Shown one piece after another: positions 41,909 through 56,315 of a DNA stretch of 64,000 bases. The position numbers were made by a program, and so were the translations under genes. Where the stretch lies: the NCBI RefSeq assembly GCF_006442545.2, contig NZ_CP083952.1, forward strand, positions 186,001 to 250,000, read 5' to 3'. The notes beneath the pieces were generated by a model. It searched no databases. It worked only from the letters and a program-made list of their open reading frames with translations, and was not told where the DNA came from. Numbering within the stretch: the stretch's first letter is position 1; each line of letters starts with the position of its first letter. The DNA comes from Mesorhizobium sp. B2-1-8 (GTDB lineage Bacteria > Pseudomonadota > Alphaproteobacteria > Rhizobiales > Rhizobiaceae).

Positions 41909-42021
41909 ACCCCGGACCGCGTCCACACTCCGCGCTCAGCCAACCGGCGCCCGGCGCTTTTCCCAACGTTTTCAGACACCGGCGCAAGCATGTTGCGGCG
42001 CAGCAACGAATTCGCTTGCCT

Positions 42022-42061
42022 TGTTTAGTAGAAATTGCATTACTAAACAAATTACTAAACA
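42022..42061. promoter_or_regulatory. Three-half-site operator upstream of the ABC/Dha operon
   Basis: TGTTTAGTA (42022-42030) is an inverted half-site of TACTAAACA (42041-42049), and the latter is repeated directly at 42053-42061. Arms are 9 bp with a 10-bp centre, and the direct copies are 12 bp apart. The site lies in an AT-rich patch about 100 bp before the binding-protein gene. It is probably the operator of a substrate-responsive repressor (DeoR, LacI or ROK type are possible); no such regulator gene is in the window. Confidence 0.65.
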
Positions 42062-42161
42062 TTCGCGACGCGATAACGCCGCCATGTTTGGGCCTCTGAG
42101 GAGAGAGGTTAAGGGTTCTCGAGACCGCCATCCGGGCGTGTTTCACAAATGGGAGGAAGGC

Positions 42162-43493
42162 ATGAAATCGAGTTTGAAACTGGCGTTGGGACTGACCTCG
42201 GCGATCACAGCGTCGACAGCCGCCTCGAACGCCGCGCACGCCGAAGACCTGACGCTGTGCTGGGCCGCCTGGGACCCGGCCAATGCACTTGTCGAACTGT
42301 CCAAGGATTTCACCAAGGAAACCGGCATCGGCATGAAATTCGAGTTCGTGCCGTGGACCAACTATGCCGACCGGTTCCTCAACGAACTGAACTCGCACGG
42401 CAAGCTCTGCGACCTGATCATCGGCGATAGCCAGTGGATCGGCGGCGCGGCGGAGAACGGCCACTACGTCAAGCTGAACGACTTCTTCGACAAGGAGAAG
42501 ATCAGCATGGACGACTTCGTGCCGGCGACGGTCGTCGGCTATTCGGAATGGCCGAAGAACACGCCCAACTACTGGGCGCTGCCGGCCATGGGCGACGTCG
42601 TCGGCTGGACCTACCGCAAGGACTGGTTCTCCAAGCCCGAGCTGCAGAAGGAATTCAAGGAGAAGTATGGCTGGGATCTCGGCCCGCCGGCCACCTTCGA
42701 CCAGTTGAAGCAGATCGCCGAATTCTTCCAGAAGCGGCAGATCGACGGCAAGACCGTCTACGGCGCCTCGATCTACACCGAGCGTGGTTCCGAAGGCATC
42801 ACCATGGGCGCCATGGACGTGCTCTACAGCTACGGCTTCCAGTACGAGAATCCGAAGAAGCCCTACGAGATGGAAGGTTTCGTCAACTCCGAGAAATCGG
42901 CGAAGGGGCTGGAATTCTACAAGGCTCTCTATGATTGCTGCACCCCACCCGGCGCCTCCAACAGCTACATGGGTGAAGGCGTCGATGCCTTCAAATCCGG
43001 CCAGGTGGCGATGCACATGAACTTCGCCTTCACATGGCCTGGCCTGCAGAAGGACGAGAATGTCGGCGGCGACAAGATCGGCTATTTCGTCAACCCGAAG
43101 GGTCCCGACGGCGACCAGTTCGCCCAGCTCGGCGGCCAGGGCATTTCGGTGGTGTCCTATTCCGACAAGCAGGAATCGGCGCTGAAATACATCAAGTGGT
43201 TCGCCAACAAGGACGTGCAGGCCAAGTGGTGGTCGCTCGGCGGCTATTCCTGCCTGAACGCGGTGGTGAAGGATCCGAAGTTCCCGTCCAGCCAGCCCTA
43301 TGCGCAGGCCTTCCTCGACTCCATGGCCATCGTGAAGGACTTCTGGGCCGAACCCAGCTACGCACCGCTGCTGCAGGCCTCGCAGAAGCGCTTCCATGAC
43401 TATGTCGTCGCCGGCCAGGGCTCGGCCAAGGACGCGCTCGACGGGCTGGTCAAGGACTGGACGCAGGTCTTCCAGGACGACGGCAAGATGTAG
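42162..43493 (+). CDS. CUT1-type ABC transporter substrate-binding protein
   Basis: A 443-aa periplasmic binding protein of the carbohydrate (family 1) type. It has a Sec signal peptide ending near AHA-ED (about residue 28), then the two-lobed solute-binding domain (LTLCWAAWDPANALVELSKD, hinge segment ALPAMGDVVGWTYRKDWF, and MHMNFAFTWPG). GGAGG lies 5 bases before the ATG. It is the first gene of a cluster with two permeases, two ATPases and dihydroxyacetone kinase genes, so the ligand is likely a polyol, glycerol-like or short keto-sugar compound; that is inference from context. Confidence 0.92.
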   Translation: MKSSLKLALGLTSAITASTAASNAAHAEDLTLCWAAWDPANALVELSKDFTKETGIGMKFEFVPWTNYADRFLNELNSHGKLCDLIIGDSQWIGGAAENGHYVKLNDFFDKEKISMDDFVPATVVGYSEWPKNTPNYWALPAMGDVVGWTYRKDWFSKPELQKEFKEKYGWDLGPPATFDQLKQIAEFFQKRQIDGKTVYGASIYTERGSEGITMGAMDVLYSYGFQYENPKKPYEMEGFVNSEKSAKGLEFYKALYDCCTPPGASNSYMGEGVDAFKSGQVAMHMNFAFTWPGLQKDENVGGDKIGYFVNPKGPDGDQFAQLGGQGISVVSYSDKQESALKYIKWFANKDVQAKWWSLGGYSCLNAVVKDPKFPSSQPYAQAFLDSMAIVKDFWAEPSYAPLLQASQKRFHDYVVAGQGSAKDALDGLVKDWTQVFQDDGKM

Positions 43494-43535
43494 CCGCGAG
43501 GCAATATCCAAGGCTCCTCCCGAGCCGTGACCGCC

Positions 43536-43565
43536 GCGTCCCGTGCCGCCCTTGGCACGGGACGC
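43536..43565 (+). promoter_or_regulatory. Intercistronic mRNA-stabilising hairpin
   Basis: GCGTCCCGTGCC-GCCCTT-GGCACGGGACGC is a perfect 12-bp stem-loop 42 bp after the binding-protein stop codon and before permease 1. No U-run follows. Hairpins at this place in binding-protein-dependent operons commonly protect the upstream mRNA so that the binding protein is made in excess; it may also attenuate transcription. Confidence 0.7.
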
Positions 43566-43619
43566 AGTTCAGATAAGTTCCATCATCGAGTCTGACCCGT
43601 GACCGAAGCAGGACTAACC

Positions 43620-44567
43620 ATGCTCAATCGGACTGCGGACAACGTTGCCCGGGCGACCCCGGAACCGTTGGCGCGCAAGGTCCGTGGCATCAGCGACAAG
43701 GGCCTCGCCTGGCTGTTCATCTCGCCGACGATCCTGTTGCTGCTCGCCATCAACATCTTCCCGCTGTTCTGGGCGATCTATCTGTCGTTCACCAATTTCC
43801 GCGCCAACCGCCCCAACGAAGTGGTGAAGAACCTCGGTTTCGCCAATTACCGGCGCATCCTCGGCGACCAGGACATCTGGATCGCCATGCAGACGACGGC
43901 GCATTTCGTGTTCTGGACCATCCTCTTGCAGACGCTGATCGGCTTCACGCTGGCCTGGCTGATCGACAGGAAGTTCCGCGGCCACGCCTTCTGGACGACG
44001 CTGATCCTGGTGCCGATGATGCTGTCGCCGGCGGTGGTCGGCAATTTCTGGCGCTTCCTCTACGAGCCGCAGATCGGGCTGTTCTCCTATGTCATCTCGT
44101 TCGTGTCGGGCATTCCGCCGACAAGCATCCAGATGCTTTCCAACGTCTCGCTGGCGCCGTGGTCGATCATCATCGTCGACACCTGGATGTGGACGCCCTA
44201 CGTGATGCTGATCTGCCTGGCGGGCCTGCGTTCCATCCCCGAATACATCTATGAGGCGGCCGAGGTCGACCGTGCCTCCAACTGGCGGCAGTTCTGGTCG
44301 ATCACGCTGCCGATGGCGCTACCCTTCATCATGCTGGCGGTGCTGTTTCGCGGCATCGAGAACTTCAAGATGTTCGACATGGTCAATCTGCTGACCGGCG
44401 GCGGACCGGGCTCCACCACCGAGGTGGCCTCGATCACGCTGAAGCGGCAAGCCTTCGAAAGCTGGCGCACCGGCTATTCCTCGGCCTTCGCCATCATCCT
44501 GTTCGTCGCGGTGTTCGGTCTGGCCAACATCTACGTCAAGGCGCTCAACAAGGTGAAGCAGAGATGA
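43620..44567 (+). CDS. ABC sugar/polyol transporter permease 1
   Basis: A 315-aa MalF-type inner-membrane permease with six helices. A long hydrophilic N-terminus is followed by WLFISPTILLLLAINIFPLF, a typical CUT1 opening. The EAA loop that contacts the ATPase reads IYEAAEVDRASNWRQFWSIT. An in-frame GTG lies at 43599, but AGGA at 43610-43613 sits correctly for the ATG at 43620. Its stop codon overlaps the start of permease 2 (ATGA). Confidence 0.93.
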   Translation: MLNRTADNVARATPEPLARKVRGISDKGLAWLFISPTILLLLAINIFPLFWAIYLSFTNFRANRPNEVVKNLGFANYRRILGDQDIWIAMQTTAHFVFWTILLQTLIGFTLAWLIDRKFRGHAFWTTLILVPMMLSPAVVGNFWRFLYEPQIGLFSYVISFVSGIPPTSIQMLSNVSLAPWSIIIVDTWMWTPYVMLICLAGLRSIPEYIYEAAEVDRASNWRQFWSITLPMALPFIMLAVLFRGIENFKMFDMVNLLTGGGPGSTTEVASITLKRQAFESWRTGYSSAFAIILFVAVFGLANIYVKALNKVKQR

Positions 44568-45514
44568 GCCTGACCACAGCCCATTCGGTCGTCGCCCCCT
44601 CGGCTGGTTCGAAGCGCATCGCCGGCGCGATCATCATCGCCTATGCGCTGATCTCGATCGTGCCGCTCTTGTGGATCTTCGCCACCAGCTTCAAGACGCC
44701 GCCGGATTCGATCGCCTACCCGCCCAAGATCGTGTTCCAGCCGAGCATCGAGGGCTACTGCAACCTGTTCACGACGCGGACCAGGCAGACGCCGGAATAC
44801 ATCAACTCGCTCGGACCGGCGACCGGCTTCTGCGACGAGACGGTGCGCAAGCGCAACATGGTGATCGCCGGCCCGTCCAACTTCCTGCCGCGCTTCATCA
44901 ATTCGCTGATCATCGCCTTCGGCTCGACCTTCTGCGCGGTGTTTCTCGGCACGTTGTCGGCATACGGGTTTTCGCGTTTCAAGGTGCCGCTCGCCGACGA
45001 CCTTCTGTTCTTCATCCTGTCGACGCGTTTCATGCCGCCGATCGCGGTCGCGATTCCCATCTACCTGATGTACCGCGAGCTTGGGCTGTCGGACACCGCG
45101 CTCGGCATGATCCTGCTTTACACGGCGGTCAACGTGTCACTCGCGGTATGGCTGCTCAAAGGCTTCATCGACGAGATCCCGCGCGAATATGAGGAAGCCG
45201 CCATGATCGACGGCTACACGCGACTGCAGGCCTTCTGGCGCACCGTGCTGCCGCAAGCGACGACCGGTATTGCCGCGACCGCCATCTTCTGCCTGATCTT
45301 CGCCTGGAACGAATATGCGTTCGCGGCACTTCTGACTTCCGGCACGGCACAAACCGCGCCGCCCTTCATCCCGACCATCATCGGCGAAGGCGGCCAGGAC
45401 TGGCCGGCGGTCGCGGCCGGCACGACGATCTTCCTGGTTCCGATCCTTGTCTTCACCATCCTGCTCCGCAAGCAATTGCTGCGCGGCATCACCTTCGGCG
45501 CGGTGCGCAAATGA
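44564..45514 (+). CDS. ABC sugar/polyol transporter permease 2
   Basis: A 316-aa MalG-type permease with six helices. It starts inside the stop codon of permease 1 (ATGA overlap), showing translational coupling. The EAA loop is EYEEAAMIDGYTRLQAFWRT. A periplasmic loop of about 60 residues after the first helix (around IEGYCNLFTTRTRQTPEYI) is longer than in MalG and contains two cysteines. It pairs with permease 1 to form the transmembrane channel. Confidence 0.93.
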   Translation: MSLTTAHSVVAPSAGSKRIAGAIIIAYALISIVPLLWIFATSFKTPPDSIAYPPKIVFQPSIEGYCNLFTTRTRQTPEYINSLGPATGFCDETVRKRNMVIAGPSNFLPRFINSLIIAFGSTFCAVFLGTLSAYGFSRFKVPLADDLLFFILSTRFMPPIAVAIPIYLMYRELGLSDTALGMILLYTAVNVSLAVWLLKGFIDEIPREYEEAAMIDGYTRLQAFWRTVLPQATTGIAATAIFCLIFAWNEYAFAALLTSGTAQTAPPFIPTIIGEGGQDWPAVAAGTTIFLVPILVFTILLRKQLLRGITFGAVRK

Positions 45515-45534
45515 TTGATCTGGGAATAAGTCGA

Positions 45535-45676
45535 CCCCCACTCCGTCGAGCTTCGCTCGACACCTCTCCCCCGATCGACGGGGGAGAGGAAGGGCGCGAA
45601 CTTCATTCAGCAAGGCTCCCTTCCTCTCCCTCCGGAGGGGGGAGAGGTGTCGCTGCGAAGCAGCGACGGAGTGGGG
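45535..45676. repeat. Palindromic intergenic element inside the operon
   Basis: The outer arms CCCCCACTCCGTCG and CGACGGAGTGGGGG are exact complements. Each arm carries its own small hairpin (GTCGAG-CTTCG-CTCGAC and GTCGCTGC-GAA-GCAGCGAC), followed inward by ACACCTCTCCCCC/GGGGGAGAGGTGT. It separates permease 2 from the 67-aa membrane protein gene. This is a different family from the copies beside nhaA. Folded in RNA it would be very stable. Confidence 0.8.
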
Positions 45677-45731
45677 GAACCACCTGGCAGTCATCTCTCC
45701 CCTTGAACGGGGAAAGGGAAGGGAGCTACGC

Positions 45732-45935
45732 ATGACGCGCCCCGCCATCTCTGGGAAATCATCATGGCCGCGTTGGGCCCGGCGCGGGCTGATGGAAAAC
45801 ATCGCAACGGCATTGATCGCCATCGGCTTCCTGATGCTGTTCCAGCCTTTCGCGCTGTCGCTCTACACCTATTCCTTCATCACCATGCTTGCCGGCACGG
45901 TGACGTTCATCATCGTCTCTAAGTTCCCGGAATAA
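45732..45935 (+). CDS. Small two-helix membrane protein of the ABC/Dha operon
   Basis: A 67-aa protein with a basic N-terminus and two hydrophobic segments (IATALIAIGFLMLFQPFALS and YSFITMLAGTVTFIIVS). AAGGGAG sits 8 bases before the ATG. It lies between permease 2 and the first ATPase, with only 2 bp to the ATPase start. Small membrane proteins occur in some polyol ABC operons; it may be an accessory to the permease, but I do not recognise the family. Confidence 0.65.
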   Translation: MTRPAISGKSSWPRWARRGLMENIATALIAIGFLMLFQPFALSLYTYSFITMLAGTVTFIIVSKFPE

Positions 45936-45937
45936 TC

Positions 45938-47050
45938 ATGGCCGAGATCCGCGTCCAACATCTGAGAAAGGCCTTCGGCGATTTCGTCGCGGTGCAGGAT
46001 TCCAATTTCGTCGTCGAGGACGGTGAGTTCTTCGTCATGCTAGGGCCATCGGGCTGCGGCAAGACCACCACCTTGCGCATGATCGCCGGGCTCGAGCTGC
46101 CAACGGGCGGCCAAATCCTGCTCGGCGGCGACGACGTCACCATGCTCAGGGCACGCGAGCGCGACATCGCTTTCGTCTTCCAGCTGTTCGCGCTCTACCC
46201 GCATATGAATGTGCGCAAGAACATCGGCTTCCCGTTGCTGGCGCAAGGCATGCCCTCGTCCGAGATCCGCACCCGCGTCGAGGAAACCGCGAAGCTTCTG
46301 CGTATCGACCATCTGCTCAACAAGTCCGTTTCCGGTCTTGCCGGCGGCGACCGCCAGCGCGTCGCGCTCGGCCGCGCCATCGTGCGGCGGCCGAAATGCT
46401 TCCTGATGGACGAACCGCTGGGGACGCTCGACACCGAATTCCGTGACCTGATGGTCCATGAATTGCGCGAGCTGCACAACCGCATCCACGCCACCACGGT
46501 CTATGTAACGCATGACCAGATGGAAGCGATGTCGATGGCCGACAAGATCGCGGTCATGAACCATGGCGTCATCGAGCAGTTCGGCACACCGCGCGAAATC
46601 TACGACCGCCCGGCTACCATGTTCGTCGCCGACTTCATCGGCTCGCCGCCGATGAATTTTCTGGGCTTTGGCGGCGGGCTTCCCAAAGGCGCGAAGGAGA
46701 TCGTCGTGCAGGGTGCCAAGGTCGCGGTACCGGAGGTGCGCGAGGACATCGCGCCCGCCGACATGGCACTCGGCATCCGCCCCGAACACATCCGCTTCGA
46801 CGATGCCTCCAAGCTGCGCGGCGCCATCTACGGCACCGAATATCTCGGCACGACGCAGATCGTTGCGGTGGAGACGGCGGACGGCATCATCAAGGCGCGG
46901 GTGCCGGCAGAAATCCGGCTCAACACCGGCGACCATGTCGGCCTGACGCTGAACAGCGCGCGGCTGTCGCTGTTCGAAAAAGGCTCCGGGCGCGCGGTGA
47001 GAACGGCGATCCACGACACTGCCTCGGAGCGGAGAGTGCAACATGGCTGA
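45938..47050 (+). CDS. ABC transporter ATPase 1 (CUT1, MalK/UgpC-like)
   Basis: A 370-aa ATPase with a C-terminal OB-fold regulatory domain. Walker A is GPSGCGKTT (36-44), Q-loop FVFQLFALYPH, Walker B CFLMDEPLGTLD and H-loop VTHDQMEAMS. The signature motif reads LAGGD (134-138) in place of LSGGQ, so the conserved serine is missing. Paired with a second, different ATPase immediately downstream (8-bp overlap), it probably forms a heterodimer with one degenerate ATP site, as proposed for the rhizobial glycerol importer GlpST. Confidence 0.92.
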   Translation: MAEIRVQHLRKAFGDFVAVQDSNFVVEDGEFFVMLGPSGCGKTTTLRMIAGLELPTGGQILLGGDDVTMLRARERDIAFVFQLFALYPHMNVRKNIGFPLLAQGMPSSEIRTRVEETAKLLRIDHLLNKSVSGLAGGDRQRVALGRAIVRRPKCFLMDEPLGTLDTEFRDLMVHELRELHNRIHATTVYVTHDQMEAMSMADKIAVMNHGVIEQFGTPREIYDRPATMFVADFIGSPPMNFLGFGGGLPKGAKEIVVQGAKVAVPEVREDIAPADMALGIRPEHIRFDDASKLRGAIYGTEYLGTTQIVAVETADGIIKARVPAEIRLNTGDHVGLTLNSARLSLFEKGSGRAVRTAIHDTASERRVQHG

Positions 47051-48056
47051 CGTGCACATCAAGGGCGTGACCAAGAGTTTTGGCGAGCATGTCGCCGTCA
47101 ACGGTCTCAATCTCCATATAGCTGACGGCGAATTCGTCGTGCTGCTCGGACCGACCGGGGCCGGCAAGACGACGACGCTGCGGCTGATCGCCGGGCTGGA
47201 GCGGCCCGATGCCGGCACGATCGAGATCGGCGGCCACGATGCCACGACCCTGTCGCCGGCCGAGCGCGACACCGCTTTCGTCTTCCAGCAATATTCGCTC
47301 TATCCGCACCTGTCGGTGTTCGACAACCTCGCCTTCCCGCTGCGCTCGCCGGCGCGGAAAATACCGGAAGACCAGATCCGCCGCCGGGTCGAGGAGGTGG
47401 CGAAGATGGTGCGCATCCATCACAAGCTCGCCAACCGGTCGACGAAATTGTCGGGCGGCGAGATGCAGCGCGTCGCCATCGGCCGCGCATTGGTGCGCAA
47501 GCCGTCCATCTATCTGATGGATGAACCGCTGTCGTCGCTCGACGCCAAGCTGCGCGCGGATCTGCGCCTGGAGCTGAAGCGCATCCAGTCCGAACTCGGT
47601 GCCACCATGCTTTACGTCACCCACGACCAGATCGAGGCCATGACCATGGCAGACCGCATCGGCATCCTCGCCGACGGCGTGCTGGTGCAGATCGGCTCAC
47701 CGCGGACGATCTATTCCGAGCCGGCAAACCTGCACGTTGCGGCAAGGCTCGGCCAGCCGGCCATCAATCTTCTGCCGACGGGGTTGCTGCCTGACGGCGG
47801 CGCGCCGGCCGGCACCAAGACCATCGGCGCACGCACCGAGCACCTGGCGATCGAGAAGGCGCCAAATGGCCATGCCGACGGCGTCGTCGACTGGGTCGAG
47901 CATCTCGGCGACCAGAACCATCTGCATGTGACGGTGGGGCCGAAGAAACTCGTTACACTGACCGATCCCGACACCGATCTGGCGCAGGGCGACAGAGTGA
48001 TGATCCGCTACCGCTCGCCGCTCTATTTCGGCGCCGACGGACACCGACTGATGTGA
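47043..48056 (+). CDS. ABC transporter ATPase 2 (CUT1)
   Basis: A 337-aa ATPase with intact Walker A GPTGAGKTT (36-44), signature LSGGEMQR, Walker B IYLMDEPLSSLD and H-loop VTHDQIEAMT, plus a shorter OB-fold C-terminal part. Its start overlaps the end of ATPase 1 by 8 bp. It is distinct from ATPase 1 rather than a recent duplicate. The two together likely energise the permeases encoded upstream. Confidence 0.92.
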   Translation: MADVHIKGVTKSFGEHVAVNGLNLHIADGEFVVLLGPTGAGKTTTLRLIAGLERPDAGTIEIGGHDATTLSPAERDTAFVFQQYSLYPHLSVFDNLAFPLRSPARKIPEDQIRRRVEEVAKMVRIHHKLANRSTKLSGGEMQRVAIGRALVRKPSIYLMDEPLSSLDAKLRADLRLELKRIQSELGATMLYVTHDQIEAMTMADRIGILADGVLVQIGSPRTIYSEPANLHVAARLGQPAINLLPTGLLPDGGAPAGTKTIGARTEHLAIEKAPNGHADGVVDWVEHLGDQNHLHVTVGPKKLVTLTDPDTDLAQGDRVMIRYRSPLYFGADGHRLM

Positions 48057-48127
48057 ATGGTTTTCGGCATCCCCGCCAAGGTGACGCCGGCATCTGATTG
48101 ACGATTGCGAAATACGGGACGAATTCG

Positions 48128-49771
48128 ATGAAGCACTTTTTCAACCGCAGGGAAACGATCGTCACCGAGGCGCTGGAGGGATTGCTGCGCACCATTGGCT
48201 CAGGCGACCTCGCGCGCCTCGACGGCTATCCCGAGATCAAGGTCGTGCTGCGCGCCGATTGGGACAAGTCCAAGGTTGCCGTCGTCTCCGGCGGCGGCGC
48301 CGGGCACGAGCCATCGCATGCCGGCTTCGTCGGCAAGGGCATGCTGACGGCTGCCGTATCGGGCGAGATCTTTGCCTCGCCAAGCGTCGAGGCCGTGCTG
48401 GCAGCCATCCGCGCGGTCACCGGACCGGCCGGCTGCCTGCTGATCGTCAAGAATTACACCGGTGACCGGCTCAATTTCGGCCTGGCGGCCGAGAAAGCGC
48501 GCGCCGAAGGTTTTGCCGTCGAGATGGTGATCGTCGCCGACGACATCGCGCTCCCCGACATCGCCCAGCCGCGCGGTGTAGCCGGCACGTTGTTCGTGCA
48601 CAAGATATCAGGACATCTGTCGGAAGCCGGCCAGGACCTGGCATCCGTTGCGACAGCCGCGCGAGCGGCGGCGAAGGACATCGTCTCGCTCGGCATGTCG
48701 CTGTCATCTTGCTCCATCCCCGGCCAGCCGCACGAGGACCGGTTCGGCGCCGATGACGGTGAGCTTGGCCTTGGCATCCACGGCGAGCCCGGCGTCGAGC
48801 GCATCGCGGTGCAGAGTGCCGACCGGCTGGTGGCTGTCATGGCGGAGCGCTTGGCGGTGCGGCTCGACCCGAAGGCCGCCCATGCCTTGCTCATCAACAA
48901 CCTGGGCTCCGTGCCACCGCTTGAAATGTCTGTTGTCGCCAATGCGGTGCTTGCCTCGCCGCTCGTCAGGACTGTGAAGCTCACGATCGGCCCCGGGCCG
49001 CTGATGACGGCGCTCAACATGAACGGCTTTTCGCTGTCGCTGATCAAGCTCGACGCGGCGCGCGAAGCTGCCTTGCTGGAACCGGTCGGCCCACACGCCT
49101 GGATGCCGGCAAAGCCGGTCGTTGCGCCTGCTGTCGTATCGATGACCAAGGCAGCCGGACAAGGCGCGGCGCGCAAGGCCAGCCAGGATGCAGGCACCAG
49201 GCGCTTGATCGCCACTGTCTGCGAAAGGTTGATTTCGCTCGAAGCGACATTGAACGGGCTCGACGCCAAGGCGGGCGACGGCGACACCGGCTCGACCGTG
49301 GCGACCGGCGCGCGCAGCATCCTCGAACGGCTCGAGACGCTGCCGCTTGCCGAGCCCCCAGCGACGCTTGGCGCGGTGGGCGATATTTTGAGTTCATCCA
49401 TGGGCGGTTCTAGCGGGGTGCTGCTGTCGATCTTCTTCACAGCAGCGGCGCAGGCTATGGACAGCGGTGCGAAGCTATCCAAGGCGCTGCTAGCCGGGCT
49501 TGAACGAATGATCTTCTACGGTGGCGCCAATCCAGGCGATCGCACCATGGTCGACGCGCTGGAGCCGGCATTGAAGGCGCTCGACGGCAAAGGCTTGGAG
49601 GAAGCCGCGATAGCGGCCCGGCGCGGCGCCGAGGCAACGGCCGCGATGGAGAAGGCGAAGGTCGGACGGTCCGCGTATGTCGGCGCCAAATTGCAGGGCG
49701 TGGTCGACCCCGGCGCCCATGCCGTGGCCGAGGTGTTCGCGGCCGCCGCCACGCTTCTTGTCATGGCCTGA
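48128..49771 (+). CDS. Fused DhaK-DhaL kinase (ATP-dependent dihydroxyacetone-kinase type)
   Basis: A 547-aa two-domain kinase. The DhaK domain has SGGGAGHEPSH (His60) and the substrate-binding GIHGEPG (His218, which forms the covalent hemiaminal in the family). After an Ala/Lys linker (about 330-355), the DhaL domain carries LDAKAGDGDTGST with metal-binding Asp379, Asp384 and Asp386. The DGDTG form resembles ATP-using kinases (yeast, Citrobacter) rather than the DGDHG of the PTS-type DhaL. Substrate: dihydroxyacetone or a related ketose such as erythrulose; not decidable here. A TTG at 48098 is in frame; the ATG at 48128 is preferred. Confidence 0.9.
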   Translation: MKHFFNRRETIVTEALEGLLRTIGSGDLARLDGYPEIKVVLRADWDKSKVAVVSGGGAGHEPSHAGFVGKGMLTAAVSGEIFASPSVEAVLAAIRAVTGPAGCLLIVKNYTGDRLNFGLAAEKARAEGFAVEMVIVADDIALPDIAQPRGVAGTLFVHKISGHLSEAGQDLASVATAARAAAKDIVSLGMSLSSCSIPGQPHEDRFGADDGELGLGIHGEPGVERIAVQSADRLVAVMAERLAVRLDPKAAHALLINNLGSVPPLEMSVVANAVLASPLVRTVKLTIGPGPLMTALNMNGFSLSLIKLDAAREAALLEPVGPHAWMPAKPVVAPAVVSMTKAAGQGAARKASQDAGTRRLIATVCERLISLEATLNGLDAKAGDGDTGSTVATGARSILERLETLPLAEPPATLGAVGDILSSSMGGSSGVLLSIFFTAAAQAMDSGAKLSKALLAGLERMIFYGGANPGDRTMVDALEPALKALDGKGLEEAAIAARRGAEATAAMEKAKVGRSAYVGAKLQGVVDPGAHAVAEVFAAAATLLVMA

Positions 49772-49843
49772 CGCATGCTCCAGTTGTCGAACGACCGTTC
49801 TTTCGCTACTGCGGGCAAGGTGGAAATCGGGAATTCGGGCGAC

Positions 49844-50446
49844 ATGAGAGCGCTGGACCTTTCGAGACTGATCACGGCTGCCGCTGACACGATTGTCGAC
49901 CACGCCGAGGAATTGACGGCGCTCGATCAGGCGATCGGCGATGGCGACCACGGGCTAAACATGAAACGCGGCTTCGAAGCCCTGCGGTCCGACGCCAATG
50001 TGTTCGCCGCAAAGCCGCTGCCCGACGCCCTGAAGGCGATCGGCACAAAGCTGGTGATGACCGTGGGCGGCGCTTCCGGTCCGCTGTTCGGCACATTGTT
50101 CATCGCGCTCGGCAAGGAGATATCGGCGGACCCCGACAATGCCAATTTGACGGCTGCCTTCGGCAAGGCGATCGAAGCCGTGGCCGCGCGCGGCAAGTCA
50201 CAAGTCGGGCAGAAAACCATGCTCGATGTGCTGCAGCCGGTGCGTGACGCGTTGGCCGGGGAAAAGACGGCGGCTGAAATAGCCGACATCGCCGACGCCG
50301 CCGCCAAAGCGACCGTGCCGATGAAGGCGCTGCGCGGCCGTGCCTCGTTCCTCGGCGACCGCTCCATCGGCCATATGGATGCCGGCGCGCGCTCGACCGC
50401 GCTGCTGGTGCGCACTCTGGCGCAGATCATCGGGGACAAAGCATGA
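49844..50446 (+). CDS. dhaL: PTS-type dihydroxyacetone kinase subunit DhaL
   Basis: A 200-aa nucleotide-binding subunit. ALDQAIGDGDHGLNM carries the three metal-binding aspartates (Asp28, Asp33, Asp35) and the DxDHG form typical of PTS-dependent DhaL, in which ADP stays bound and is rephosphorylated by DhaM. The frame is open to an ATG at 49775, but family alignment and the lack of a Shine-Dalgarno there favour 49844. It overlaps dhaM by 4 bp. Confidence 0.9.
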   Translation: MRALDLSRLITAAADTIVDHAEELTALDQAIGDGDHGLNMKRGFEALRSDANVFAAKPLPDALKAIGTKLVMTVGGASGPLFGTLFIALGKEISADPDNANLTAAFGKAIEAVAARGKSQVGQKTMLDVLQPVRDALAGEKTAAEIADIADAAAKATVPMKALRGRASFLGDRSIGHMDAGARSTALLVRTLAQIIGDKA

Positions 50447-50832
50447 GCAATGTCGGGATCGTGATCGTGTCGCATTCGCCGCTGGTCGCGGAAGGCACGG
50501 CCGACATGGTGCGCCAGATGGTGGGTGACGAAGTGCCGCTTGCGTGGTGCGGCGGAAACGGCCATGGCGGGCTCGGCACCAATGTCGAGGCGATCATGGG
50601 CGCCATCGAGAGGGCCTGGTCGGACGCTGGCGTCGCCATACTGGTCGATCTCGGCGGGGCCGAGACCAATTCGGAAATGGCGGTGGAGATGATCGGCGAG
50701 CCGCGGGCGCAGAAGATCATCGTCTGCAACGCGCCGATCGTCGAGGGCGCGGTGATGGCGGCGACCGAGGCGTCCGGCGGCGCCTCGCTGAAAGAAGTGG
50801 TGGCGACGGCGCATGAATTGTCGCCGTCGTGA
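50443..50832 (+). CDS. dhaM: DhaM phosphotransferase subunit (EIIA-Man-type domain only)
   Basis: A 129-aa protein with the mannose-type EIIA fold. The active-site histidine is His11 in GIVIVSHSP; VDLGGAETNSEMAVEM matches the family core. E. coli DhaM carries EIIA, HPr and EI-like domains in one chain. Here only the EIIA part is present, and the other two are encoded next as separate proteins. It overlaps dhaL by 4 bp (ATGA). Confidence 0.92.
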   Translation: MSNVGIVIVSHSPLVAEGTADMVRQMVGDEVPLAWCGGNGHGGLGTNVEAIMGAIERAWSDAGVAILVDLGGAETNSEMAVEMIGEPRAQKIIVCNAPIVEGAVMAATEASGGASLKEVVATAHELSPS

Positions 50833-50853
50833 GTGAACAGGAACGTTGAGCAT

Positions 50854-51156
50854 ATGTCCGCAACCGCCGAAGCGACCGTCCTGATCACCCACGATGTGGG
50901 CCTGCATGCGCGACCTTCGGTGAAGTTCACCAAGCTGGCCAAGAGCTTTGCCGCCGACGTGGAAATCGCGCTTGCCGCCAATGGCCCATGGTTCGATGCC
51001 AAGAGCATCGTCAAGGTGATGGCGGCCAAGGCGCCGAAGGGCACGGTGCTGCATATCAGGGCCAATGGTGATGGTGCCGATGATGCTATCCGCGCGCTGA
51101 TCGAACTGGTACAGCGCGATTTCGACGAGGATGCCGGCCATGTCCGCTCGGCTTGA
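50854..51156 (+). CDS. HPr phosphocarrier protein of the Dha relay
   Basis: A 100-aa HPr. The phosphorylated histidine is His18 in HDVGLHARPS, and the regulatory serine position is kept (Ser51 in KSIVKVMAA, equivalent to Ser46). It starts 21 bp after dhaM, and its stop codon overlaps the open frame of the enzyme I gene. It should carry phosphate from EI to DhaM. This is not the usual rhizobial PTS-Ntr HPr, whose gene normally sits near chvG/hprK. Confidence 0.92.
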   Translation: MSATAEATVLITHDVGLHARPSVKFTKLAKSFAADVEIALAANGPWFDAKSIVKVMAAKAPKGTVLHIRANGDGADDAIRALIELVQRDFDEDAGHVRSA

Positions 51157-51197
51157 GGCCGACGCATGCCTTGGCCGGCCCGCGGGGAATGCGGGCC

Positions 51198-52772
51198 ATG
51201 CGCATTGAGGGTGTTCCGGCCTCGGCCGGCTACGCCGAGGGGCCTTTGTTCGACCTCGGCCGGCCTGCCGGCATCTACGCGAGCAAGGCAAGCTCCGCGG
51301 AAGAGAAGATGTCACTGGAGGCCGCGATCGGCAAGGCGGTGAACCGGCTCGCGGCCATGGTCGGGACCGCCGACAGCGATGCCGCCGACATACTCGAATT
51401 CCACATCGCGATGCTCGAAGACGACGCGCTGAGCGGGCCGGCTTTCGCATCGATCGCTTCGGGAAAACCCGCCGACGCGGCTTGGCGGCAGGCACTCGAT
51501 GCCGAGATCGCCGGCTACGAGGTCTCGGACCAGGATTATTTCCGCGCCCGCGCCACGGACCTGCGCGATATCAGGGACCAGGTGCTGCGCGTCCTGACCG
51601 AGGACGGTGACAGCGCGGCACCGGCGGGCGCCATCCTCTACGGCGAGGATATCGCGCCGACGCGCTTTCTCGAAACCGACTGGAGCCATGGCGGCGGCAT
51701 CGCGCTGAAGGCAGGCAGCACCGCAAGTCACGTCGCCATGCTGGCGCGCTCGCGTGGCGTGCCGATGGTCGTGGGTCTGCGCGAGCCGCTCACCGCTGTT
51801 GCCGGCATCGCGCTGCTCGACGCTGAGCACGGCAATATCGTTCTGGCGCCCTCGCCCACGGAGATCGGCTCGTTCCGGCAGTCGTCCTCAGCCTTCGTGG
51901 CCCGCCAAGGCGATGCACAGACCTTTCTGGCGCGGCCGGCGGCGACGAAGCGCGGCACCGCGGTGCGCGTGCAGGTCAATATCGCCGACCCCAGGGATGT
52001 CGATGCCATCGACATCGCCACTTGCGACGGTGTCGGCCTGATGCGCACGGAATTCCTGTTCGGCAAGACGCTGCCGGATGAAGAGACGCAGTATCGCGCC
52101 TATCGCAAGGTGCTGGAATGGGCCAGCACAAAACCGGTGACGATCCGTACCGTCGATGCCGGCGGCGACAAGCCGGTGCCGGGCTTCACCGTCGAGGAAG
52201 GCAATCCGTTCCTCGGCCTGCGCGGCATCAGGCTGTCGCTGGCCAGGCTCGACATATTCCGTGTTCAAATAAGGGCATTGCTGCGCGCCGCACCACACGG
52301 CAATCTCAAAGTCATGTTTCCGATGATCGCCACACCGGAAGAGTATGAACGCGCCGCCGCCCTGTTCGCCGAGGAACGGGTAGCCCTTGCCACGCGCGGC
52401 ATCGCGCACAAAATGCCGCCGCTCGGCATCATGGTCGAAGTGCCTTCGGTGGCCATCGCGCCGGAGGCGTTCGCCGGCGTCGCCTTCCTGTCGATCGGTT
52501 CCAACGATTTGACGCAATATGTGATGGCGGCCGCGCGCGACAATGCCGCTGTGGCCAAGCTGAATTCTGTTCGTCATCCCGCAGTGCTGAGGCTGATCGG
52601 CTCGGTCGCGGCCTTCGGACGGGAAAACGGGATTCCCGTCAGCCTGTGCGGGGATGCCGGCGGCGACCCCGCCGCGATCCCCTCGCTGCTGGAGGCTGGC
52701 CTGCGCGATCTCTCCGTCGCGCCGGCGCAACTCGCCATGGCCAAGGCGGCCATCGCGAACGTCCCGGTCTAG
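51198..52772 (+). CDS. PEP-protein phosphotransferase, enzyme I
   Basis: A 524-aa enzyme I. The phospho-histidine is His178 in GSTASHVAML, the PEP-binding segment is GVGLMRTEFLF, and the catalytic cysteine is Cys484 in SLCGDAGGDP. It lacks the GAF domain of PtsP/EI-Ntr and is about 50 residues shorter than classical EI. It should take phosphate from PEP and pass it to the adjacent HPr. Several starts are possible (51153 TTG, 51189 ATG); the ATG at 51198 gives the family-like MRIEGVPASAG and has GGGGA upstream. Confidence 0.9.
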   Translation: MRIEGVPASAGYAEGPLFDLGRPAGIYASKASSAEEKMSLEAAIGKAVNRLAAMVGTADSDAADILEFHIAMLEDDALSGPAFASIASGKPADAAWRQALDAEIAGYEVSDQDYFRARATDLRDIRDQVLRVLTEDGDSAAPAGAILYGEDIAPTRFLETDWSHGGGIALKAGSTASHVAMLARSRGVPMVVGLREPLTAVAGIALLDAEHGNIVLAPSPTEIGSFRQSSSAFVARQGDAQTFLARPAATKRGTAVRVQVNIADPRDVDAIDIATCDGVGLMRTEFLFGKTLPDEETQYRAYRKVLEWASTKPVTIRTVDAGGDKPVPGFTVEEGNPFLGLRGIRLSLARLDIFRVQIRALLRAAPHGNLKVMFPMIATPEEYERAAALFAEERVALATRGIAHKMPPLGIMVEVPSVAIAPEAFAGVAFLSIGSNDLTQYVMAAARDNAAVAKLNSVRHPAVLRLIGSVAAFGRENGIPVSLCGDAGGDPAAIPSLLEAGLRDLSVAPAQLAMAKAAIANVPV

Positions 52773-52781
52773 GCGGCAGGC

Positions 52782-53204
52782 ATGATCGATATCAAACCCG
52801 AACCCGGTTCCGAAGAGGCGATCCGCGCCTACAAAACGATCCTGTCACAGGTCATCGACCAGCGCCCGTCCGGTATGCGCCAGCGCCTTGCCGACGCGCT
52901 TGGCAAGCACCGCAGTTTCGTCACGCAGATTTCGAGCCCCGCCTATTCGATCCCGATACCGTCAAAGCATCTGCCCGCCATCTTTTCCGTCTGCCATTTC
53001 AGCCAGGCCGAGCGCGACCAGTTTCTCGCCGCCTATCATCAGGCACATCCCGGGAAGATCTCGGTCGCCGCGGGCGCGCGCAAGACAAGGCACGTTTCGC
53101 TCATCGTGCCGGATTTCGGCGACGACAAGCAGAATGCGGCGCTCGACCGCGCGATCAACGAATTCATCCAGAAGGTCACCATCATCACCGGCAAGAGTGG
53201 CTGA
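52782..53204 (+). CDS. Putative helix-turn-helix protein of the Dha cluster
   Basis: A 140-aa protein between the enzyme I gene (9 bp gap) and dhaK. Residues about 30-60 (GMRQRLADALGKHRSFVTQI) look like a Cro/Xre-type HTH, followed by an Er..Fl.aY..AHP segment (QAERDQFLAAYHQAHP) and a C-terminal part with KTRHVSLIVPDFGDDKQN. I do not recognise a named family. The position suggests a regulator or modulator of the kinase system. Confidence 0.6.
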   Translation: MIDIKPEPGSEEAIRAYKTILSQVIDQRPSGMRQRLADALGKHRSFVTQISSPAYSIPIPSKHLPAIFSVCHFSQAERDQFLAAYHQAHPGKISVAAGARKTRHVSLIVPDFGDDKQNAALDRAINEFIQKVTIITGKSG

Positions 53205-53243
53205 GTGACCCTTGATGTCAGGCTATTTCGGGAGGAGACAGCC

Positions 53244-54230
53244 GTGAAGAAATTCATGAACTCGGTGGATACGGTGCTGACCGAGAGCCTCGACGGTTTC
53301 GTGGCCGCCCATGCCGGCATCCTGGTGCTTGGCGAGGAGCACAAATTCATCCGCCGCAAGGTGCTCAAGCCGGGCAAAGTGGCGCTGATCTCCGGCGGCG
53401 GCTCCGGCCACGAGCCTCTGCATGGCGGCTTTGTCGGCCATGGCATGCTGGACGCCGCCTGCCCCGGCCAGGTGTTCACCTCGCCGACGCCGGACCAGAT
53501 GCTGGCGGCCGCGCAAGCTGTCGACACCGGCGCCGGCTGCCTGTTCATCGTCAAGAACTATGAAGGCGACGTGATGAACTTCGACATGGCGGCGGAAATG
53601 TCGGAAGGCGTGCTTCAGGTGGTGACGAATGACGACGTCGCCGTCGAGAATTCTTCCTACACGACCGGCCGGCGCGGCGTCGCCGGCACGCTGGTGGTTG
53701 AAAAGATCGTCGGTGCCGCCGCCGAGCACGGCCTGGCATTGCCGGCGTTGAAGGCGCTGGGCGACCGCGTCAACGACGCGACCCGCTCGATGGGTGTGGC
53801 GCTGACCAGTGGCACCGTGCCGGCGGCCGGCAAGCCAACCTTCGACATCGGCGACGGCGAGATGGAATTCGGCGTCGGCATCCATGGCGAGCCCGGCCGC
53901 CGCCGCGACACCTTGATGAGCGCCGATGCGATCGCGCAGGAGATCTGCGCCGCGATCCTTGGGGATCTCGGTGACAAGGCGAAGGGACCCGCGCTGCTGT
54001 TCGTCAACGGCTTCGGCGGCACCCCGCTGATGGAGCTCTATTTGATGTACAACAGCGCCCGCCGGATATTCGAGCAACATGGCGTGACGATAACCCGCTC
54101 GCTGGTCGGCACCTATGTCACCTCGCTCGACATGGCCGGCTGCTCGATCACGCTGACCCTGCTCGACGACGAATTGACGGGCTGGTGGGACGCACCTGTC
54201 CACACGGCCGCGCTGCGCTGGGGCCTATAA
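53244..54230 (+). CDS. dhaK: PTS-type dihydroxyacetone kinase subunit DhaK
   Basis: A 328-aa substrate-binding subunit. SGGGSGHEPLH includes His56, and GVGIHGEPG includes His214, the residue that binds dihydroxyacetone covalently. The C-terminal WDAPVHTAAL is as in E. coli DhaK. There is no fused DhaL domain. The start is a GTG at 53244, encoding MKKFMNS like the family, with a perfect GGAGGAG at 53231-53237; the ATG four codons later is less likely. With DhaL and DhaM it makes a complete PTS-type kinase. Confidence 0.92.
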   Translation: MKKFMNSVDTVLTESLDGFVAAHAGILVLGEEHKFIRRKVLKPGKVALISGGGSGHEPLHGGFVGHGMLDAACPGQVFTSPTPDQMLAAAQAVDTGAGCLFIVKNYEGDVMNFDMAAEMSEGVLQVVTNDDVAVENSSYTTGRRGVAGTLVVEKIVGAAAEHGLALPALKALGDRVNDATRSMGVALTSGTVPAAGKPTFDIGDGEMEFGVGIHGEPGRRRDTLMSADAIAQEICAAILGDLGDKAKGPALLFVNGFGGTPLMELYLMYNSARRIFEQHGVTITRSLVGTYVTSLDMAGCSITLTLLDDELTGWWDAPVHTAALRWGL

Positions 54231-54282: not shown

Positions 54283-55323
54283 ATGGGTTTGCCCGGATTG
54301 ATGCTGCCATCCCTCACCTGCGCCGAAGAAAGACTGCTGCTGCGCTTCGCCGATCCCGAGGCCTCGGCGGTCGAGGACGATTTGTCGGCGAAGGCCCTGT
54401 CGGCGCTGCTCGACAATGCCGAATTCCACGGCGTCCTGCCGATCATGCTGCGCAAGCTCTGGGAGCGCGGCGACGCGCACCTGCCGTCGGACGCTGGCTT
54501 GCAGGACAAACTCGACGACCTGCGCCAGAAGGCGACGATCGCCACCGGCCAGTCGATGCTGCTGCAGTATCATGGCGACCGCATCATGAAGGGGATGGCG
54601 GCGGAAGGCATTCCGGCGCGGATCGTCAAGGGACCGGTCTTCGCGCGAAAACTCTACCGCAACGTTTCCGACCGGCCGTTCACCGACATCGACATCCTCG
54701 TCGAGCCCGCCAACCTCGTGCGGGCAAACCAGGTGATCGCGGCATCAGGCTTCGAGCTTGGCAGCAACGAAGCCGAATCCTACCGGCTGCAGGAGTTCAA
54801 ATGGCTGGAAAAGGAGAACTCCAGCCTGCTGGTCGAGTTGCATGGCGACCTTGTGCATGACACCGGCATGCGGCGGCGCCTGTCGCTGGGTTTTCGCGAG
54901 TTGGGCATCATCGACGGCGAGGCGGCGGACACGCCGGCAGCCCTTTTGACGATCGCCATCGTGCATGCGGCCGGGGGACATAAATTCCACCGGCTGCAGC
55001 TTTGCGTCGACGTGCTGCAAGGCGTGCGGGCGCTGCAGTCGCCGAAAGCCGAGGAACGCCTGCTCGACGCCGCCCGCATGACCGGCATCGAGCTTGAACT
55101 GGCGATTGTGCTCAACGTGACCGGCCAGTTGTTCGACGAACCGCATGCGCTCGAACTCGCCGGGCGGATCAAGCCTGACCTGTCGATACGGCTGGCCAAA
55201 AAGCTGATCACGGTGAACACCCTGCTCAGGGTCAATTCCCGGGAGAAGATCGGCTCGCGTCTACGTCGCGATGCGTTCCGCTGGATCCAGCGGTTGGCCA
55301 AGGCCAGGCCATACCCCGCTTGA
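54283..55323 (+). CDS. Nucleotidyltransferase family protein (NTP_transf_5-like)
   Basis: A 346-aa protein with an uncharacterised nucleotidyltransferase domain. The core is ARIVKGPVFARKLYRN and DRPFTDIDILVEP, with the DxD-type metal residues in TDIDIL. Members of this PF14907 group occur beside lasso-peptide B2, PqqD and HprK-like genes. It converges with the HprK-like gene with 8 bp between stop codons, so it belongs to the same locus but is read from the other side. Substrate unknown. Confidence 0.8.
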   Translation: MGLPGLMLPSLTCAEERLLLRFADPEASAVEDDLSAKALSALLDNAEFHGVLPIMLRKLWERGDAHLPSDAGLQDKLDDLRQKATIATGQSMLLQYHGDRIMKGMAAEGIPARIVKGPVFARKLYRNVSDRPFTDIDILVEPANLVRANQVIAASGFELGSNEAESYRLQEFKWLEKENSSLLVELHGDLVHDTGMRRRLSLGFRELGIIDGEAADTPAALLTIAIVHAAGGHKFHRLQLCVDVLQGVRALQSPKAEERLLDAARMTGIELELAIVLNVTGQLFDEPHALELAGRIKPDLSIRLAKKLITVNTLLRVNSREKIGSRLRRDAFRWIQRLAKARPYPA

Positions 55324-55331
55324 AGTGGCCG

Positions 55332-56315
55332 TCAGCCTCGTGATGTCAATGTGGCGCTTATCAGCGTCGCCGCATCGGCCGGACGCGCCCCCACTTCCAA
55401 GGTGAAGGTCGGCACCGAGGCGACCAGTCTGCCGATCGTCGCCAGCCGGCGCTTCTGCAGCGGCAGCAGGCCGGTCATGCCGGTTCGGACATTGTCCATC
55501 GCCAGCGCCACCATCGCGTCGGTCCGGGCCATGGGCGCGAGCCGGGTTTGTTCATCGGCCGATCGCGCAAGGTGCAGGAGCGCGGCTACCGGACGGGCGG
55601 TCGGGCTTTCGATTTTCACGATCCCGCCCAGCTTTTCCAGCGAAACAGCCTGTTCGCCGTTGCGATCCCAGGATGGCCCCAGGCATGGCGCCACAAGCGG
55701 GATCATCCGCGCGGTCTTCTCATGGATCTTGACGTGGCGGGGCAAACCCCAGGCAACGGGCGTGGCGGACGCGACATTCAGGATCATGGCATCGTCGGAG
55801 CACAGGCCGAATCCTTGCGTCGCCAAGGCCAGCGATATGGTGGTCTTGCCGGTGCCGCTCGGGGCATGGGCCAGCACGACGGCGTCGCTGCCCGGCAGCG
55901 TCAGGCCAGCGGTGTGCAGCATATGTTGGCCGCCGGCGTCGAGTGCCGCGTCCAGCATCAGCATTGACGGCGTCCAGGCGGCCTTGCTGTCGGGCACGAT
56001 GCGGAGTCGAGCCCAGCCCTTCTCGTTGATCTCGACGGTCTGACGTCCCGGCAAGACCAGATGGACGCTGGCGCCGTCCGCGATCATCCGGCAATGGCCG
56101 TCGTCCGGTATCTCGCCGTCGAAGACCAGGGATCCGGCGGGGGTCTCGTCCAGCGCTTCCGCCTCGACGATGTCGAGATGGAAATCCGCTTCGGTCGAAC
56201 CTTCGACGCGCAGGCTGGCGAGCATCCTGTCGAAGTCCCGCCATAGCTCGGCGCGGTCGGCCGAAATGCCGAGGACCTGGCCGTTGAGATCATAGAAGGC
56301 GGAAGGTCTGGTCAA
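55332..56315 (-). CDS. HprK-like serine kinase
   Basis: A 327-aa protein. The N-terminal 110 residues are a variable beta-rich domain. The C-terminal part is a P-loop kinase of the HPr kinase type, with PSGTGKTT (152-159) and the downstream acidic LCSDDAMIL. Such HprK-related kinases accompany PqqD and B2 proteins in lasso-peptide and polysaccharide loci; some phosphorylate a peptide serine. Its start overlaps the end of the B2 peptidase gene by 4 bp, indicating one operon. Confidence 0.82.
   Translation of the reverse strand: MTRPSAFYDLNGQVLGISADRAELWRDFDRMLASLRVEGSTEADFHLDIVEAEALDETPAGSLVFDGEIPDDGHCRMIADGASVHLVLPGRQTVEINEKGWARLRIVPDSKAAWTPSMLMLDAALDAGGQHMLHTAGLTLPGSDAVVLAHAPSGTGKTTISLALATQGFGLCSDDAMILNVASATPVAWGLPRHVKIHEKTARMIPLVAPCLGPSWDRNGEQAVSLEKLGGIVKIESPTARPVAALLHLARSADEQTRLAPMARTDAMVALAMDNVRTGMTGLLPLQKRRLATIGRLVASVPTFTLEVGARPADAATLISATLTSRG

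Follow-up and report, generated by a model that had tools for sequence, protein, structure and literature searches.

Gene content of the operon

The DNA analysed here (the window) is a stretch of 64,000 nucleotides from Mesorhizobium sp. B2-1-8 (Rhizobiales, Rhizobiaceae), located at positions 186001-250000 of contig 1 (NZ_CP083952.1) of a 6.87 Mb genome assembled in 2 contigs. It contains an operon of 13 co-directional genes (window positions 42162-54230), in which an ATP-binding cassette (ABC) importer is joined to two kinds of dihydroxyacetone kinase, a fused ATP-type enzyme and a set belonging to the phosphotransferase system (PTS). The genes encode, in this order, a solute-binding protein, permeases 1 and 2, a 67-amino-acid (aa) protein, ATPases 1 and 2, the fused kinase DhaKL, DhaL, DhaM, HPr, Enzyme I (EI), a 140-aa protein and DhaK (Table 1). 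A preliminary description of the sequence had recognised the common orientation correctly and counted twelve genes instead of 13. The ATGA overlaps it gave for the permease genes and for DhaL/DhaM are present, and its 8 bp at the ATPase genes is the right figure for what is an overlap rather than a gap. The arrangement is far from chance, since it recurs across the family and the order, as was found when the same gene order was sought in relatives. A split of the operon by internal promoters was not supported by a scan that covers alphaproteobacterial promoters poorly (the proposed main promoter was missed as well): one promoter-like match was located inside the operon compared to a mean of 2.1 in shuffled sequences.

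The importer has the composition of the CUT1 class, with an SBP_bac_1 binding protein, two BPD_transp_1 permeases and MalK-like, TOBE_2-containing ATPase, although two ATPases are encoded where the class definition names one. The binding protein is found with 94-99% identity in many Mesorhizobium records. Among solved structures it has weak and mixed relatives (best PDB 6DTQ, E about 1e-16), and a substrate could not be derived from homology, since these relatives are distant and named for differing sugars. The 67-aa protein has no family match in Pfam or NCBIfam and is encoded at the same position across relatives. Its gene is separated from that of permease 2 by a dispersed palindromic repeat, of which 22 matching pieces were detected on both strands of the genome, the copy in the operon included and the other copies being partial. 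The insert is absent from a locus of the same genus (L046), where permease 2 lies directly next to the small gene. An open reading frame at 45511-45735 was ruled out as a small membrane protein, as it is read from the repeat.

Table 1. Features of the operon and its upstream region (window positions)
Feature	Position	Strand	Basis and remarks
-35-like hexamer TTGCCT	42016..42021	+	position counts; presumed promoter role
operator-like inverted repeat TGTTTAGT-N12-ACTAAACA	42022..42049	+	pattern search and comparison; across presumed -35/-10 spacer; putative binding site
third half-site ACTAAACA	42054..42061	+	sequence pattern; direct orientation, 12 bases 3' of second half-site
solute-binding protein, extracellular, SBP_bac_1/8, 443 aa	42162..43493	+	Pfam-type family match
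ABC permease 1, BPD_transp_1	43599..44567	+	family match; GTG start, ATG at 43617
ABC permease 2, BPD_transp_1	44564..45514	+	family match; ATGA overlap with permease 1 at 44564-44567
dispersed palindromic repeat, 217 bp	45515..45731	.	inserted between permease 2 and small gene
small membrane-type protein, 67 aa	45732..45935	+	position kept in relatives; membrane location by eye
ABC ATPase 1, ABC_tran + TOBE_2	45938..47050	+	family match
ABC ATPase 2, ABC_tran + TOBE_2	47043..48056	+	family match; 8-bp overlap with ATPase 1
fused ATP-type dihydroxyacetone kinase DhaK-DhaL	48128..49771	+	family match, PDB 1UN9 alignment
DhaL, PTS type, ADP-binding subunit	49775..50446	+	family match
DhaM, EIIA-man domain only	50443..50832	+	family match; ATGA overlap with DhaL at 50443-50446
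HPr	50833..51156	+	family match
Enzyme I	51153..52772	+	family match; start uncertain, 51189 or 51198 possible
140-aa protein	52782..53204	+	predicted structure (lambda-repressor/XRE-like fold); proposed operon repressor
DhaK, PTS-type dihydroxyacetone-binding subunit	about 53244..54230	+	family match; frame open from 53205

Kinases and phosphoryl relay

The five proteins of the PTS branch score above the cut-offs of their NCBIfam families, namely DhaK (459.6 vs 406.25), DhaL (203 vs 138.3), DhaM (140.4 vs 98.25 bits), HPr (65 vs 47.9) and EI (359.7 vs 341.7), and DhaK is alignable to PDB 4LRX/1OI2. Signature motifs were found in DhaK, DhaKL, DhaL, DhaM, HPr and EI, in agreement with the catalytic residues noted in the preliminary description; these motifs are taken here to have their accepted meanings for Dha and PTS proteins, including dihydroxyacetone-binding signatures in both DhaK chains. 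The fused kinase combines Dak1 and Dak2 domains and dihydroxyacetone-binding motifs in one chain, and its alignment with PDB 1UN9 (E 1e-148) covers residues 3-541 of 547. It scores below the NCBIfam cut-off for the ATP-type enzyme (TIGR02361; 525.5 vs 574.95 bits), and what is claimed is that it probably works like an ATP-type kinase, not that it belongs to the TIGR02361 equivalog. By sequence, the operon shows a complete relay from phosphoenolpyruvate (PEP) through EI, HPr, DhaM and DhaL to DhaK plus a second, putatively ATP-dependent DhaKL, with intact active-site motifs in both.

Three HPr-domain matches occur in the genome. At G000:C1:1522815 of this genome, an HPr domain lies inside a 675-aa open frame, possibly encoding a second multi-domain PTS protein. 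Dak1 matches number four genome-wide, two of them in the operon. Two more DhaK genes (L075, L076), 45% and 41% identical to the window DhaK, are located in other contexts of the genome, one of them with a DhaL-like gene.

Distribution of operon types

Related operons were assigned to three types: importer and PTS kinase (type a), importer and both kinases, as in the window (type b), and importer and fused ATP kinase alone (type c). A search with the binding protein in 151 genomes of the family gave matches at E<=1e-60 in 55, of which 44, including the genome of the window, harbor a close relative (65-100% identity), the remaining matches being paralogs (42-46%). From the 43 close loci of other genomes, 39 were compared (G045, G095, G121 and G145 were left out), and these comprise 12 loci of type a, 10 of type b and 17 of type c. 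Two of them are truncated, L041 ending at the contig edge after HPr and L044 within DhaKL; L044 was typed b, since the 140-aa gene sits on another contig of the same genome. The importer is located next to a Dha kinase in all 39 loci, which supports the earlier proposal that ABC uptake is joined to Dha-type phosphorylation. Of the PEP-driven phosphorylation proposed with it, the PTS set is present, but PEP drive is not essential, because 17 of the 39 family operons hold the ATP-type fused kinase only. A loss of kinase motifs in the latter operons was dismissed, as GIHGEAG with its histidine is retained in 17/17 type c fused kinases. The same importer thus occurs with PEP-driven, ATP-driven or both kinases, a natural experiment in the choice of the phosphoryl donor.

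In a sample of named loci (the best 80 of 565 relatives, mostly Mesorhizobium), the genus Mesorhizobium was seen to include operons of type a as well as type b. Outside the family, 40 loci were chosen by their 140-aa protein, a sample in which type c could not appear. The full importer and PTS set was found in 31 of these (27 type a, 4 type b) and the PTS set without importer in 7, while L212 is cut at a contig end and L226 is a lone 140-aa gene. In two type b loci (L205, L227) the fused DhaKL gene is located downstream of DhaK rather than upstream of DhaL. An ATP-only form on a Shinella plasmid consists of a LacI gene and a seven-gene unit with unrelated flanks.

Two FastTree trees with 76 taxa each, including 5 paralogs, were built, one from the binding protein and one from the concatenated permease and ATPase sequences, and they disagree. 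The permeases and ATPases of the window cluster with those of L046, whereas its binding protein groups with proteins of type a, adjacent to 15 of the 17 from type c; in the permease/ATPase tree, type c forms a single clade. This is read as a possible exchange of the binding protein between types around a common substrate class, the alternative being a change of specificity. The fused kinases of types b and c fall into separate clades (midpoint root, no outgroup), which is compatible with independent recruitment as well as with an ancestor that possessed the two kinases together.

Relation to known systems

The PTS-type subunits pass their NCBIfam cut-offs and in this resemble the PEP-dependent DhaK-DhaL-DhaM of E. 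coli, whose DhaM domain plan and DhaR regulator served for comparison. Unlike in E. coli, DhaM of the window is an EIIA domain alone, HPr and EI are separate genes of the operon, the set is joined to an ABC importer and no DhaR-type regulator is encoded in the operon. The fused kinase resembles the ATP-dependent enzyme of PDB 1UN8/1UN9, which is from Citrobacter, over the 3-541 range of its 547 aa, but shares its operon with a PTS-type kinase. The rhizobial glycerol importer GlpSTPQV has two permeases, two ATPases, a small membrane protein and a binding protein; it is likened to the importer described here by its component list alone, the small protein of the window being without family match.

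The nearest described counterpart is blr3566-blr3577 of Bradyrhizobium diazoefficiens, which encodes in the same order a binding protein, two permeases, a small hypothetical protein, two ATPases, DhaL, EIIA, HPr, EI, a hypothetical protein and DhaK (PMC5017801). The likeness is one of order and annotation, and a fused DhaKL is not listed there between ATPase 2 and DhaL. Expression of all 12 genes was raised 4.2- to 24.3-fold by mutation of blr7984, and in bacteroids it was at 0.17-0.60 of the free-living wild type (PMC5017801). Unrelated expression of the ABC and Dha halves, named earlier as a result that would speak against their connection, is not what was observed in this relative: the two halves were expressed together and the block was co-regulated (PMC5017801). 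The accessible part of the paper names no substrate or dedicated regulator for blr3566-blr3577, and neither do the accessible parts of the open-access literature on the cluster, its inducers and ABC import of dihydroxyacetone. In one table row of another paper, blr3566 is listed under the class Nitrogen fixation (PMC8632152). The core arrangement is already published for one relative; the present analysis adds that the kinase type is exchanged while the importer stays the same, that regulator and operator change along with it, and that genes for a dehydrogenase and a TIM-barrel protein are linked to the cluster. These additions offer an entry point to the substrate of a cluster that occurs in many rhizobia and is lowered in Bradyrhizobium bacteroids.

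The 140-aa protein and its candidate operator

The 140-aa protein matches no Pfam or NCBIfam family. Judging from the predicted fold only, it may be a DNA-binding protein of the lambda-repressor/XRE-like kind; the preliminary description likewise took it for a helix-turn-helix protein, which it may be. Its gene is present in 22/22 family genomes with PTS-bearing operons (types a and b) and in 0/17 with ATP-only operons, and in 39 of the 40 out-of-family loci it is flanked by the genes for EI and DhaK. One genome contains a second copy (L226, on contig 34 of G243) with no Dha genes within a stretch of 16 kb.

Upstream of the binding protein gene, an operator-like inverted repeat, TGTTTAGT-N12-ACTAAACA, lies across the presumed promoter spacer. 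Operons were scored by their best match to this pattern upstream of the binding protein gene (maximum 16, threshold 13). The window scores 16, and scores of at least 13 were reached in 33/39 type a, 13/14 type b and 1/17 type c operons and in 5/1060 mononucleotide shuffles, figures that are partly circular, since the window and its relatives supplied the consensus. A site of this kind is present in 46 of 53 PTS-bearing operons. Cleaner tests are uniqueness within the genome and absence from the other operon type. The pattern occurs only once in the 6.87 Mb genome, at the operon; among the 39 family genomes, its exact form was found in 13 of the 22 with types a and b, as one site each and in all 13 just upstream of the operon, in none of the 17 with type c, and a control pattern gave zero sites. 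In clusters without importer the operator is located before DhaL (6 of 7, L230 being the exception). In all 36 sites with a spacing of 12 and a score of at least 13, the bases 6-4 positions 5' of the operator are an invariant TTG. With this TTG six bases before it, the site would fill the presumed promoter spacer, as a repressor site is expected to do.

In ATP-only operons, a different pair appears to take over. A LacI-type gene was identified in 16 of the 17 type c loci, compared to 0/12 in type a and 0/10 in type b, by direct search of the locus stretches; gene calling alone had shown it in 12 loci. Pfam LacI and Peripla_BP_4 domains were confirmed in the two LacI-type proteins examined, and an annotated example exists in Shinella. 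The palindrome TGAGGTRCGYACCTCA is matched by 17/17 type c operons in at least 14 of 16 positions, scores that are not independent, as the consensus was drawn from type c loci. Its exact form was found in 12 of 17 type c and in 0/22 type a/b genomes, with 15 of 16 sites before the operon and one elsewhere in G071. Comparison suggests that the 140-aa protein and its operator are replaced in ATP-only relatives by the LacI-type regulator and TGAGGTRCGYACCTCA, so that the exchange of the kinase is matched by an exchange of regulator and operator.

The analysis predicts that the 140-aa protein and TGTTTAGT-N12-ACTAAACA form a dedicated repressor-operator pair, among whose closest known systems are lambda cI and XRE repressors and the C proteins of restriction-modification systems. 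A role of the protein at the palindrome is proposed from their co-occurrence. The circularity of both sets of scores weighs against this assignment, as do scores below 13 in 7 of 53 PTS-bearing loci and in one of the 7 importer-less clusters and the absence of the exact operator form from 9 of 22 type a/b genomes. Divergence of the 140-aa protein correlates with the operator score (rho 0.61), but so does that of EI (0.52) and, to a lower degree, that of the binding protein (0.28); because EI tracks the score nearly as well, the correlation by itself does not single out the 140-aa protein. With this assignment, a protein family without match in the searched libraries gains a DNA site and a role that are both testable.

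Proposed pathway and substrate

The locus is tentatively interpreted, with a confidence a little short of even, as an uptake-and-phosphorylation operon with dihydroxyacetone as the most likely import and the 140-aa protein as its own repressor. Through the binding protein and the importer, the cell would take up a small ketone in unphosphorylated form, most probably dihydroxyacetone, which both kinases would convert to a phospho-ketone (dihydroxyacetone phosphate) entering glycolysis. The phosphoryl cost would be met from PEP in the PTS branch and from ATP in the case of the fused kinase. The 140-aa protein, whose gene is flanked by those of EI and DhaK, would repress the operon via the operator over the presumed promoter. 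The earlier suggestion that the ABC substrate may itself be the ketone is kept as the simplest reading, with dihydroxyacetone in that position, but it falls short of proof; the main rival is a larger sugar that yields the DhaK substrate.

Several observations speak against uptake of dihydroxyacetone as such. CUT1 binding proteins and LacI regulators are typically devoted to larger sugars. Genes for a TIM-barrel protein and a Gfo/Idh/MocA dehydrogenase were detected, in several orders, in 15 of the 40 out-of-family loci and in 3 of the 39 family loci. Outside the family, they adjoin the cluster in 12 loci, where they lie upstream of it, behind DhaK or divergently, and are about 7 kb off in 3 (L217, L219, L225). 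A gene similar to ketose 3-epimerases (best NCBIfam match D-psicose 3-epimerase, below cut-off; PDB matches D-tagatose 3-epimerases) is located within or beside the cluster in 5 of the 39 family loci and, outside the family, in L222; it lies between ATPase 2 and DhaL in L037, L039, L041, L066 and L222 and upstream in L073. Direct import of dihydroxyacetone hardly accounts for these linked genes, which weaken that interpretation. The lack of an obvious dehydrogenase pointed out in the preliminary description holds for the window but not for loci elsewhere, and the missing enzyme may exist, because a Gfo/Idh/MocA gene accompanies the cluster in other families.

It is possible, if doubtful, that the import is a larger sugar, polyol or glycoside, which would be converted by the Gfo/Idh/MocA dehydrogenase and the TIM-barrel protein as a hydratase/epimerase, so that the Dha kinases would in the end be supplied with dihydroxyacetone or some other ketose. 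Besides the linkage described above, this is favoured by L221, in which the genes for TIM-barrel protein, Gfo, DhaL, DhaM, HPr, EI, 140-aa protein and DhaK form one run with the importer absent, and by the match of the TIM-barrel protein to PDB 8RO4, a 2-hydroxy-3-keto-glucal hydratase (E 1.9e-168). The TIM gene is present in 44/44 cluster-bearing family genomes compared to 77/107 others (Fisher p about 1e-5), a weak co-occurrence, since the gene is common in the family (121/151) and small genomes without it bias the test. The genome of the window has a copy as well (C1:1715577, 83%), but this is located away from the operon, 15 kb from a paralogous importer. Moreover, neither TIM nor Gfo gene was found in the stretch from -3 to +13 kb around the binding protein gene among the best 80 of 565 relatives, nor in the locus stretch of 15 of the 17 ATP-only loci. 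We are not aware of a reaction by which a 3-keto sugar would give rise to a substrate of DhaK. For glycosides, a general route of oxidation, elimination, hydration and reduction has been described, and the genes of the cluster are not mentioned in the accessible part of that source (PMC13273386). We consider unlikely the further-reaching proposal that the 140-aa protein is the founding member of a novel family of repressors that act on Dha operons and read the PTS or kinase state and that the operon at the same time ends an undescribed route, from the imported sugar via the dehydrogenase and the keto-glucal-hydratase-like enzyme to the Dha-kinase substrate; in the compared genomes, the 140-aa protein goes with the PTS-type kinase.

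There is little probability that the imported compound is D- or L-erythrulose, which are C4 ketoses, or a related ketose that DhaK-type enzymes phosphorylate and enzymes encoded elsewhere then isomerise. In mycobacteria, some DhaK-family enzymes act on erythrulose, and in 4 of 12 type a family loci and in L222 the epimerase-like gene separates ATPase 2 from DhaL. However, this is a minority of loci, the conserved cluster contains no recognisable gene for a tetrose-phosphate isomerase, and the active-site motifs of DhaK are of the dihydroxyacetone type and non-discriminating. That importer and kinases are mere neighbours under a shared promoter, the importer having an unrelated substrate, is very improbable: 7 of 40 out-of-family loci hold the kinase set without importer in the locus stretch, and a paralogous importer of the same layout is found without Dha genes in its locus stretch (L074, L077-L080), but a Dha kinase adjoins the importer in 39/39 family loci despite the differing kinase type and the B. 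diazoefficiens counterpart is co-regulated.

Paralogous importer and flanking genes

The paralogous importer of the same layout (L074, L077-L079; at C1:1700454 in the genome of the window and in relatives), with a binding protein 42-46% identical, adjoins a gene of the PEP_hydrolase family, and by eye also UPF0261/Tm-1, 2-hydroxyacid dehydrogenase and mandelate-racemase-like genes. In many genomes holding this importer, a keto-glucal-hydratase-like gene is located approximately 6-20 kb from it. Directly 3' of DhaK in the window, an NTP_transf_5 gene is located (54283-55323), which likewise adjoins in L046. It is followed on the opposite strand by a gene for a P-loop protein (55332-56315) that has no Pfam match and appears HPr-kinase-like by eye.

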